IMG/VR virus record: IMGVR_UViG_3300042525_000798
Span: 1 to 23,378 of that record
DNA from: a virus
Length of the DNA: 23,378 nt
Direction: 5' to 3' (one strand)
In this document: piece after piece, positions 14,264 through 16,289 of the stretch
Numbering within the stretch: the first letter of the stretch is position 1
How the letters are laid out: each line of letters starts with the position of its first letter
The notes under the pieces: generated by a model
What the model was told of the DNA's origin: nothing
The model's database searches: none
Seen by the model: only the letters and a program-made list of their open reading frames with translations
Translations under genes and position numbers: made by a program

Positions 14264-14464
14264 TCACCCTTCTTCTTTTTTCTTCACCCAGTTTTTTAGG
14301 TCTCTCACATAGCTTCGCAAGCTTTCCGCTTTTTCCAAGTGCCAAGGATCGTGATCCTCGAAATAGCGGGAATTGTGCCAATCAATGGCTTGAAGGAGAC
14401 GATGGATGATGGGATTGAGAGGCTCACGCAACGGCGTGTTAAAAGTTCGCCGCTCCTCGGACAT
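14264..14464 (-). CDS. Small hypothetical protein (66 aa)
   Basis: A 66-residue frame reading NPIIHRLLQAIDWHNSRYFE, then DPWHLEKAESLRSYVRDLKN and a lysine-rich end WVKKKEEG. It looks like a helical soluble protein. The ATG at 14464 lies 26 bp inside the end of the phosphoesterase gene, so the two are probably co-translated. The stop falls directly against the outer stem of the three-way junction. No known family is recognised. Confidence 0.55.
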   Translation of the reverse strand: MSEERRTFNTPLREPLNPIIHRLLQAIDWHNSRYFEDHDPWHLEKAESLRSYVRDLKNWVKKKEEG

Positions 14465-14999
14465 TGGTGCGGAAGTGATCGACGATCAAATCCAATGCTA
14501 CAGGAGTGAAATCGTTCCTCTCAACGCAGGCATTGAAAAATCGTTGATCAACTTGCCCATCTTTTATCACTAGATGGCAGTGAAGGTGTCCGTGAACATT
14601 ACCTAGATAGTGCCCACGAAGATTGTCGGGATGCACTGGAATGTGCGTGAAAATAAGACCACCTGGCAATGCCTTACCTGCATGGTGAAACATGGCCCCG
14701 CGAATGTCTTCAAAATACTCGGCGTAGTCTTTGAGCTTGAACGTGTCGTGATTGCCGCGAATGAGAATCTTTCTCCCATTGCATCTGGCTAAGTTTTTTA
14801 GCCCACTACGCGGAATCGCTACGTCGCCAAGATGGTAAACAGTGTCTTTATCCTTGACCACTGCATTCCACCGCTCCACCATTGTCTCATCCATCTCTTC
14901 GCACGAAGAAAAAGGACGCAATGGGGAACCATTGGGCTGCGCAAAAGACAAGCTTTTGGCGTGTCCCCAGTGGCTGTCTCCAATGACGAAGGCGCTCAT
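14439..14999 (-). CDS. Calcineurin-like metallophosphoesterase
   Basis: A 186-residue protein with the full set of metallophosphoesterase motifs: D-x-H in FVIGDSHWGH (residues 5-14), GD in VYHLGDVAIP, GNHD in ILIRGNHDTF, and H residues in IFTHIPVHP and NVHGHLHCH. These bind two metal ions and hydrolyse phosphate esters. The length and motif spacing match small phosphoesterases common in phages, whose substrates are mostly unknown. The stop overlaps the next small gene and its ATG shares one base with the preceding stop, so three genes form a tight run. Confidence 0.88.
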   Translation of the reverse strand: MSAFVIGDSHWGHAKSLSFAQPNGSPLRPFSSCEEMDETMVERWNAVVKDKDTVYHLGDVAIPRSGLKNLARCNGRKILIRGNHDTFKLKDYAEYFEDIRGAMFHHAGKALPGGLIFTHIPVHPDNLRGHYLGNVHGHLHCHLVIKDGQVDQRFFNACVERNDFTPVALDLIVDHFRTNVRGAANF

Positions 15000-15193
15000 C
15001 AGTCGTACTCCTTGATCACCATTCTTGAAATGGGAGTTGCCTCTATCAGGCTATGAGCGCGACGCTCTGCGTCGTCGACGGTGGTAAATGTCCCCCTGGG
15101 CTCCCACCAGAGCCAGCATCGCTCTTCCACATCGTATATGGGCACTCCTGCTTGCACAAAGGATGAACGCCTAACAATGCGAAAACGAGCCAT
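14999..15193 (-). CDS. Small hypothetical protein (64 aa)
   Basis: A 64-residue frame: MARFRIVRRSSFVQAGVPIY, then CWLWWEPRGTFTTVDDAE and RRAHSLIEATPISRMVIKEY. The layout of a Trp-rich strand, a turn with Gly, a Phe/Thr pair and a helix with Ala is shared with the small proteins at 17790-18002 and 23088-23243. The ATG is 2 bp after the tRNA-like sequence, so its transcript probably includes or follows that RNA. The stop shares a base with the phosphoesterase ATG. Function unknown. Confidence 0.6.
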   Translation of the reverse strand: MARFRIVRRSSFVQAGVPIYDVEERCWLWWEPRGTFTTVDDAERRAHSLIEATPISRMVIKEYD

Positions 15194-15194
15194 A

Positions 15195-15263
15195 GGGCGC
15201 TTCTGGGAATCGAACTCCAGGACTCTAGGCTATCTGCCTAGCGTGTGCCAACACTTAAGCGCA
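15195..15263 (-). tRNA. Degenerate tRNA or tRNA-like gene, possible tRNA-Ile(GAT)
   Basis: The minus strand folds into a reduced cloverleaf of 69 nt. Acceptor strands are TGCGCTT and AAGCGCC (6 of 7 pair), the D stem is GTGT/ACAC with a 4-nt loop TGGC, and the anticodon stem CTAGG/CCTAG is perfect with loop CAGATAG. A 4-nt variable region leads to a T arm with loop TTCGATT, where one bulged A interrupts the stem. By position the anticodon is GAT (Ile), but base 33 is A instead of the near-universal U. CCA is not encoded. The short D loop, A33 and bulge suggest either a decayed tRNA or a tRNA mimic. Confidence 0.5.
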
Positions 15264-15480
15264 AGTGACCCCCAGGTTTGAGCATTGTTAAGAGGCTTAG
15301 GGGGGCTGCAGGAGGCGATCAACTCCCCTGGCCTGCCGAGGCAGGACTTAGTTTACAAGCGCTGCGACCAGAAATTTCCAGTCCGTGCGCTGCTTGACAA
15401 TCGTAGCAAGAGATGGGCCAAGCGTGAACAGCCGCAAGCGGCTCAAACAGGGGCTTGGCCTCTGTCACAGACCACTATAG
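15264..15480 (-). ncRNA. Structured non-coding block upstream of the tRNA-like gene
   Basis: No convincing gene lies here. A long-range closing pair joins CCCC plus GTTTGAGC (15270-15273, 15276-15283) with GCTCAAAC plus GGGG (15441-15448, 15450-15453). Inside it TTGTTAAG (15285-15292) pairs with CTTGACAA (15393-15400), enclosing AGGGG/CCCCT, the hairpin CCTGC-CGAG-GCAGG (15332-15345) and AGCGC/GCGCT (15358-15362, 15387-15391). GGCCAAGC (15416-15423) pairs with GCTTGGCC (15453-15460), crossing the outer stem as a pseudoknot. The block ends 6 nt before the tRNA-like acceptor, so both may belong to one RNA. The strand is chosen from that link. Confidence 0.45.
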
Positions 15481-15504: not shown

Positions 15505-16230
15505 TCAACCATAGGACGGTAAATTCAGCGCATTCGTTTCAAAAAACGCTGGCACTGTACTGGCACGAGTTTCTTGTAATTCTGGGGCTTTACCGCTGAG
15601 AAAAAGGCTATCACTTTGGCGAAGCCAAAAATCTTTGTCCAAGTATTTATTAGACGAAGAATCAAGCTTATCGTAAATCCACAGCGCCGTCATTTTTCTG
15701 AGCTTGTTCAGACTGCTGCTGTATTCCTCCCCAGACTCCTCCGCAATCTTGGTATTGCAAAACGAGTGGCATATTTCATCGCGAGAAATGTCACTAGCAA
15801 CAGTTCTCAACCCTTTGTCGCCATTGAAACGAAAGAATGGCAAAATTGTAAAAAACAAACTGCGTTCAATTGTTGCCACCTTGAGAATTGGATGGGCTGG
15901 ATGGTCGATCCATGCTTGGCGAATCCGAAAAGCTTCTTTTTCCGATTGCTCATTTGTGCCATGGGCAGCAGCAACGTAGTTGAGAGCTTCGTCATGACGC
16001 TCTTCGTCGGCCATATTGCTATGAATGGATTCAATAAGGCCGGGGCTATTGGGAAGTTCTCGCTCGAGGCCCTCAAGAAGCATGTCCTTCACAGGCAGTT
16101 CAAGGTGACGAATGGCAAGGGCGCGGAAAATCGTTTCCTCAGAACCTTCCACAAAATCACCTGTAGTGACAGGCACTGCTTGCCAAGGACGCTTGCGGGC
16201 AACTGCAGAAAAATAATCAAGAACTGCCAT
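15505..16230 (-). CDS. nrdB: Class I ribonucleotide reductase small subunit, compact and lacking the radical Tyr
   Basis: A 241-residue helical protein of the ferritin-like R2 family. Likely metal ligands are E44, E76 and H79 (DEERHD), E122 (ATIERSLFF), and E152 and H155 in SRDEICHSF; the R-D-E-x-x-H string is a hallmark of R2. W16 may start the radical path and Y240 lies at the C terminus. In most R2 proteins a Tyr follows the first His by four; here that residue is L83, so no ordinary tyrosyl radical can form. The chain is far shorter than the usual 320-390. ATG 16230 is used; the frame is open to a TTG at 16266. It follows nrdA with a terminator-like hairpin between. An aldehyde-deformylating-type diiron enzyme was considered but fits less well. 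Confidence 0.75.
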   Translation of the reverse strand: MAVLDYFSAVARKRPWQAVPVTTGDFVEGSEETIFRALAIRHLELPVKDMLLEGLERELPNSPGLIESIHSNMADEERHDEALNYVAAAHGTNEQSEKEAFRIRQAWIDHPAHPILKVATIERSLFFTILPFFRFNGDKGLRTVASDISRDEICHSFCNTKIAEESGEEYSSSLNKLRKMTALWIYDKLDSSSNKYLDKDFWLRQSDSLFLSGKAPELQETRASTVPAFFETNALNLPSYG

Positions 16231-16261
16231 GTGAAAAGAAGCAATGGTAAAAACAAAGGAC

Positions 16262-16289
16262 GACAAACAAGGGCAGCTAATGCTGCCCC
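16262..16289 (-). terminator. Rho-independent terminator after nrdA
   Basis: On the minus strand GGGCAGC-ATTA-GCTGCCC (16271-16288) is followed by TTGTTTGTC. It lies 18 bp after the nrdA stop and 41 bp before the nrdB start. It may partly separate the two subunits' expression. Confidence 0.6.

Follow-up and report, generated by a model that had tools for sequence, protein, structure and literature searches.

A viral genome fragment of 23,378 bases, the IMG/VR record IMGVR_UViG_3300042525_000798 (analysed over its whole length and called the window below), carries a cassette of small RNAs that are quite probably phage antitoxin mimics directed against the AbiF toxins of the host, with at least two orphan antitoxin RNAs, of which the canonical one, abiF, would be released by RNase P. 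While the anatomy of the locus is secure, the decoy function and the processing are what we infer. To our knowledge little is known about phage answers to AbiF, and the widespread toxin-free copies of the abiF antitoxin in phages provide a ready candidate, which can be tested with cyanophages and mycobacteriophages that have already been isolated.

AbiF (Abi_2), of a HEPN RNase family from which Cas13 arose, has the abiF RNA as its antitoxin (PMC12373285). The RNA RCd22 of C. difficile, with two abiF motifs, neutralises AbiF both in cis and in trans and requires its stems to do so (PMC12373285), and the PbAbiF-RNA complex is structure 8VZ6 (PMC12737573). An abiF sRNA is also listed in the paper on phage S-CREM1, with no anti-AbiF reading (PMC9964418), and among open-licence papers no report was found of phage AbiF mimics or of a phage tRNA-like 3′-end signal, a scope that leaves novelty uncertain.

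The RNA cassette and its genomic setting

By sequence, the record is related to the cyanosiphovirus S-CBS4, a Synechococcus phage, with which it shares the synteny rnrA-rnrB-phosphoesterase-terL-portal and a terminase that is 56% identical. The whole RNA cassette lies on the minus strand, downstream of an rnrB-like gene for the ribonucleotide reductase beta subunit (15505-16266, minus strand, homologue of S-CBS4 gp002) and upstream of a 64-aa open reading frame (14999-15193, minus strand, taken from the ORF list), which is followed by a phosphoesterase gene (14439-14999, minus strand, Metallophos PF00149, homologue of S-CBS4 gp004). In S-CBS4 the gap between the rnrB and phosphoesterase genes, the site of the RNA cassette in its relatives, is filled by an endonuclease VII gene (L122:2654-3091), and several of these relatives possess both the endonuclease gene and the cassette; no abiF RNA was found in the scanned stretch of S-CBS4, the closest isolate. 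Abi_2 was not found anywhere in the 23-kb record and, since the record is a fragment, an AbiF gene may still reside elsewhere in the same phage.

The only match in the window at Rfam gathering level is the canonical abiF RNA (type A, RF03085) at 15268-15304 on the minus strand, which scores 55.3 bits against a gathering threshold of 37, is complete over model positions 1-37 and can be aligned to the RNAs directly upstream of host AbiF. It was missed by the first-pass annotation, which had described a structured upstream block and a tRNA-like part on either side of it, and it ends 4 nt before the tRNA-like element (15195-15263, minus strand). The linker between the two, CACU (15264-15267, minus strand), is predicted to form the 3′ end of the abiF RNA upon release, and UCACU also follows the stem in host AbiF RNAs. 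Among 24 relatives the outer stem is paired in 94% and the inner stem in 100% of cells. Between phages and hosts one inner-stem pair has changed in both bases (most phages A-U, S-CREM1 U-A and hosts G-C), and the apical loop of the viral RNA is shorter than in picocyanobacterial type A RNA. Altered abiF units occur in other phages: L282 and L273 carry such units, one with an enlarged apical loop; in L282 (3413-3850) a long hairpin replaces the apical loop and both halves of the conserved core are retained; and the variants in L284, L285, L286, L288 and L289 share the inner stem ACGCC...GCGCA with the type C AbiF RNAs of picocyanobacteria.

The 5′ unit of the cassette is a type B AbiF-antitoxin-like RNA (15416-15466, minus strand), with the consensus GACAGAGGSCAAGCCYCUGU...CACGCUUGSYC. 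It is closed by an 8-bp stem in which GGCCAAGC (15460-15453) pairs with GCUUGGCC (15423-15416); each of 17 sequences keeps all 8 pairs, and compensatory changes are seen at 4 of them. The crossing 8-bp stem proposed by the first-pass annotation is therefore real, and closes this unit, but the 12-bp long-range pairing proposed with it is not supported, as the upstream TTTGAGC that it requires is present in only 2 of 45 loci with a tRNA-like element and as it competes with the abiF fold; conservation in relatives extends to the 8-bp stem and the tRNA-like stems and not to the 12-bp pairing. A 5-bp stem that would make type B a classical pseudoknot is only hinted at (81% of cells formed, with no two-sided change), so the claim for type B is left to the 8-bp stem. 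A -10-like hexamer, TATAGT (15474-15479, minus strand), stands 7 nt ahead of this first RNA unit as a putative promoter element, and of 29 distinct phage copies of the type B unit, 18 have a TAYRNT hexamer, often TGCTATAGT, that ends 6-7 nt ahead of it.

The middle modules (15305-15415, minus strand) separate the two antitoxin units and are three short elements (the CUGGAAAUUUC hairpin, AAGUCCUGC...GCAGGCC and GUUGAUCGCCUCCUG) that 11-33 phage loci share in interchangeable combinations. They have no Rfam match and no real host counterpart, and are possibly further toxin-antidote mimics. An apparent host counterpart in L404 was rejected as a chance match, lying antisense within a long ORF (by eye, DNA polymerase III alpha). 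A weak -10-like TACGAT is also present at 15405-15400.

Host counterparts and toxin-free copies in phages

In a phylum sample of cyanobacteria and relatives, Abi_2 is above cut-off in 23 of 386 genomes, several of them photosynthetic by PsaA/B, and in the family of one of these, G521 (genomes of 1.3-4.0 Mb, whose size and photosystem genes point to the picocyanobacterial family), AbiF is rare (13 of 300 genomes). Three types of RNA are found directly upstream of AbiF in this family. Type A (e.g. CAACACCCCCUAGGCCUCU...AUGCCCAAACCUGGGGGUCACU) matches the phage abiF RNA in its flanks, outer stem and core, including UCACU, and the flanks of host abiF are almost letter-for-letter identical to those in the phage (CAACACCCCCU...GGGGGUCACU). 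Type B (GAUAGAGCUCAAGCCCCUG...UCACGCUUGAGCCAUC) matches the 5′ unit of the phage and stands directly upstream of AbiF in genomes G601 and G771 (L396 and L400); it accompanies a second subfamily of host AbiF, whose identity to the others is 26-33%. Type C (ACGCC...GCGCA) resembles the variants in phage loci L285 and L288, and the AbiF proteins of types A, B and C are 26-45% identical to one another.

Viral abiF loci were mostly found by an exact match to the core, which at least 120 viral contigs matched, so that divergent viral abiF RNAs are under-counted; the counts are of loci and not of independent events, with 57 distinct sequences (a few loose matches included) from the composite search. 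By Pfam, one of the 138 viral records with abiF RNA, many of which are fragments, contains Abi_2 (PF07751), which was not found in S-CREM1 and S-SZBM1, complete cyanophages with the abiF RNA. A profile HMM built from 51 bacterial AbiF proteins detects AbiF at 75 of 120 bacterial abiF loci (directly downstream at 74 of them) but at 1 of 136 viral ones, and since the same HMM succeeds in the bacterial loci, the difference is not due to detection. Such toxin-free copies of host antidotes suggest that the virus probably disarms the AbiF defence.

The abiF-type RNA also occurs in cultured actinobacteriophages, namely the Omegavirus mycobacteriophages Wanda (L342) and Redno2 (L343), Lolly9 (L344) and Arthrobacter phage Mimi (L345), none of which is among the phages with an AbiF protein. 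AbiF together with a canonical abiF RNA is seen in Gordonia effusa (L226), of the same order as the mycobacteria.

A sample unbiased for abiF was provided by 80 viral loci fetched by rnrB alone. The abiF core is found at most 3.5 kb downstream of rnrB in 26 of them (0 in shuffled sequence), and type B in 26, 14 of which also have abiF; the type B pattern matched none of the 80 loci when applied to the antisense strand or the coding control, and neither type A nor type B is present, by the patterns used here, in 42 of the 80 loci.

The tRNA-like element and the probable processing of the abiF RNA

At 15195-15263 on the minus strand, ARAGORN finds a cloverleaf and calls it tRNA-Ile(GAT), with a short D arm, an A at position 33 (loop CAGATAG) and a bulged A in the T stem, in line with the 4-nt D loop, A33 and T-stem bulge described by the first-pass annotation; its suspicion that such a molecule may be unable to decode normally is supported by A33, a drifting anticodon and a score below the Rfam tRNA threshold. 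Specifically, the element falls below the 29-bit gathering threshold of RF00005, which is not its best Rfam match even up to an E-value of 10, whereas most true phage tRNAs reach 47-71 bits in the same searches; the best match is mascRNA-menRNA (RF01684), which is non-significant (14.9 bits against a gathering threshold of 42.5, E 2.6). Among 24 distinct relatives, position 33 is A in 12, T in 8 and C in 4 (U33 in only 8 of 24), the anticodon varies and the discriminator is C in 23. CCA is not encoded after position 73.

The 69-nt element is a real structure and not an ordinary tRNA. When folded with the 37 nt upstream, the cloverleaf yields exactly the abiF stem plus the cloverleaf. Across 24 distinct composites of abiF and tRNA-like element, all of the same class as that in the window, pairing holds in 95.3% of 717 cells, with two-sided changes at 12 pairs; in none of 500 shuffles of this set did the pairing, the number of two-sided cells or the covariation score come up to the real value. 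Folding energy does not set the region apart, its minimum free energy having a z of -0.6 to -1.0.

A structural scan for a 7-bp acceptor and a T arm at a set position after abiF finds a tRNA or tRNA-like element there in 50 of the 138 viral loci, against 0 of 120 bacterial ones and 0-3 of about 127 loci at nine shifted control positions, and about 13 more loci pass by eye. The T-arm sequence lies 48-78 nt downstream of the abiF core in 40 contigs, compared with 2 at the wrong spacing (148-178 nt) and 3 on the 5′ side, and in 40 loci picked on T-arm sequence only, the acceptor pairs at 6 or more of 7 positions in 37, compared with 22% when strands are swapped between loci. In the rnrB sample, all 26 abiF cores are followed by a tRNA-like element when the printed sequences are read by eye; a stricter automatic scan with exact pairing reports it in 7 of 25 only. 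The element is absent after abiF in Omegavirus mycobacteriophages and in many viral contigs, and is thus not essential everywhere. The bacterial loci show a T-run after the abiF stem, resembling an intrinsic terminator, in 109 of 120 cases, against 15 of 138 viral loci. In S-CREM1, S-SZBM1, S-SRM01 and mycobacteriophage Lolly9 a genuine tRNA (Gly, Ala, Arg, Asn) is found 4-5 nt after abiF. The tRNA-Asn of Lolly9 begins 4 nt after abiF; in Mimi the motif comes after a tRNA-Tyr.

The acceptor and T arm together are the known minimal substrate of bacterial RNase P. Both are kept in relatives in which the anticodon arm is gone (L055, L064 and L109) or extra arms have appeared (L017 and L101). Since genuine tRNAs occupy the same slot in other phages, the tRNA-like part is most likely an RNase P processing signal, predicted to be a substrate of RNase P at its 5′ end and of RNase Z at its 3′ end, and for the same reasons the RNAs are probably cut apart and do not form one tmRNA-like molecule. 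The plan put forward by the first-pass annotation, a structured domain with a tRNA-like 3′ end that is neither tmRNA nor a known mimic, stands as anatomy, conserved across many phages, but not in its meaning, the domains being orphan AbiF-antitoxin RNAs that are probably separated. Neither ARAGORN nor Rfam reports a tmRNA in the window. Cleavage at the 3′ end of the tRNA-like structure would leave a nearly leaderless mRNA for the 64-aa ORF, which begins 1 nt further on.

On infection, the cassette would be transcribed early or within the rnr operon, and host RNase P would recognise the acceptor stem and T arm and cut 4 nt after the abiF stem, producing an abiF RNA that ends in ...GGGGGUCACU, as in the host's own antitoxin. 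In bacteria the same 3′ end would arise by termination just after the stem; given a tRNA slot in viruses and a T-run in bacteria, the simplest reading is that phages make this end by RNase P, which would let the abiF RNA sit inside an operon. The free RNAs may then bind the HEPN toxins of the host AbiF family and hold them inactive during phage replication, as tested antitoxin RNAs of the same family suggest, and types A and B together would cover different AbiF subfamilies.

A single functional RNA in which abiF keeps its tRNA-like part, the latter for instance sitting in the active site of AbiF or shielding the 3′ end, is unlikely. Such a joined RNA would suit the rigid spacing (of the 50 positive viral loci, 37 have the acceptor start at offset +35), the strong covariation across the composite as a whole and the presence of the element with each abiF core of the rnr loci. 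However, genuine tRNAs in the same slot and at the same spacing would be useless as tRNAs if fused, bacterial AbiF RNAs do without such a part, and the form of the element varies widely except in the features that RNase P requires.

The maintenance of the stems by compensatory change where there is no toxin speaks against remnants of captured AbiF modules, which would decay, and a reading of the RNAs as such remnants, or as regulators of phage genes, with no role in anti-defence, is very unlikely. Their position within an operon, from rnrB to the phosphoesterase, and the shuffling of modules by recombination would suit this reading, but the same RNA occurs in unrelated phages of cyanobacteria and actinobacteria, and the types that are combined match distinct host AbiF subfamilies. 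Finally, an ordinary tRNA-Ile that supplements host decoding beside an unrelated RNA is hardly credible: tRNAs are common in phages and ARAGORN makes this very call, but the score (below the Rfam tRNA threshold, far from the range of most true phage tRNAs), position 33, the drifting anticodon, the C discriminator and the loss of the anticodon arm in some relatives all stand against it.

Relation to known systems

The phage RNA shares with the abiF RNA/AbiFr (RF03085) the stems and the conserved single-stranded core, and has the flanks of picocyanobacterial AbiF operons. It departs from the AbiF type III-like toxin-antitoxin system in that no toxin gene is adjacent, and from the bacterial abiF RNA in that (i) its 3′ end is apparently set at the tRNA-like element and not by termination after the stem and (ii) it comes together with an antitoxin of a second type.

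Pseudo-ToxI of phage PhiTE is a phage RNA antitoxin mimic of proven action against ToxIN (PMC3475682), and the RNAs of the window would likewise be phage-borne type III antitoxin mimics facing a toxin-based defence. The target of pseudo-ToxI, however, is ToxN and not a HEPN AbiF, and PhiTE carries repeats of one unit whereas the window combines different antitoxin types with a tRNA-like element. Solitary CRISPR repeats in phages (Racr) mimic the repeats of crRNAs and hit Cas6/Cas7 (PMC10651486); they too are an orphan RNA part of a host defence, often beside a promoter, but the target in the window would be AbiF, the ancestor of Cas13.

In MALAT1/mascRNA and MENbeta/menRNA, a tRNA-like element sets the 3′ end of the upstream RNA via RNase P (PMC11693755, PMC12941219). 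The arrangement is alike, with an acceptor and T arm directly 3′ of an RNA at fixed spacing, and RNase P cleavage is predicted in the phage; those, however, are eukaryotic long noncoding RNAs, and homology is not claimed (14.9 bits against 42.5). In the element of the window, bacterial viruses would have their own counterpart to the 3′ end that RNase P makes on MALAT1. Read as processing signals, such elements would account for some of the 'defective' tRNAs of phage genomes, which should not be counted as decoding genes.

More broadly, phages of cyanobacteria (with single units in those of actinobacteria) could carry modular cassettes of different antitoxin mimics, each matching one AbiF subfamily and possibly other toxins, and matured by degenerate tRNAs whose sole role is that of RNase P signals; such a general architecture of RNA-based anti-defence is plausible, with the case for and against it evenly balanced.

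No abiF RNA was found in the lactococcal phage sk1, which is cited, as far as the reference list of PMC12737573 tells, for a region that shields phage 712 against AbiF. An abiF RNA with no AbiF in the fetched stretch is also seen at 45 bacterial loci (within L142-L260), some of them clipped by contig ends; these loci, mostly of Bacteroidota and with a T-run after the stem, may represent prophage-borne orphan antitoxins.
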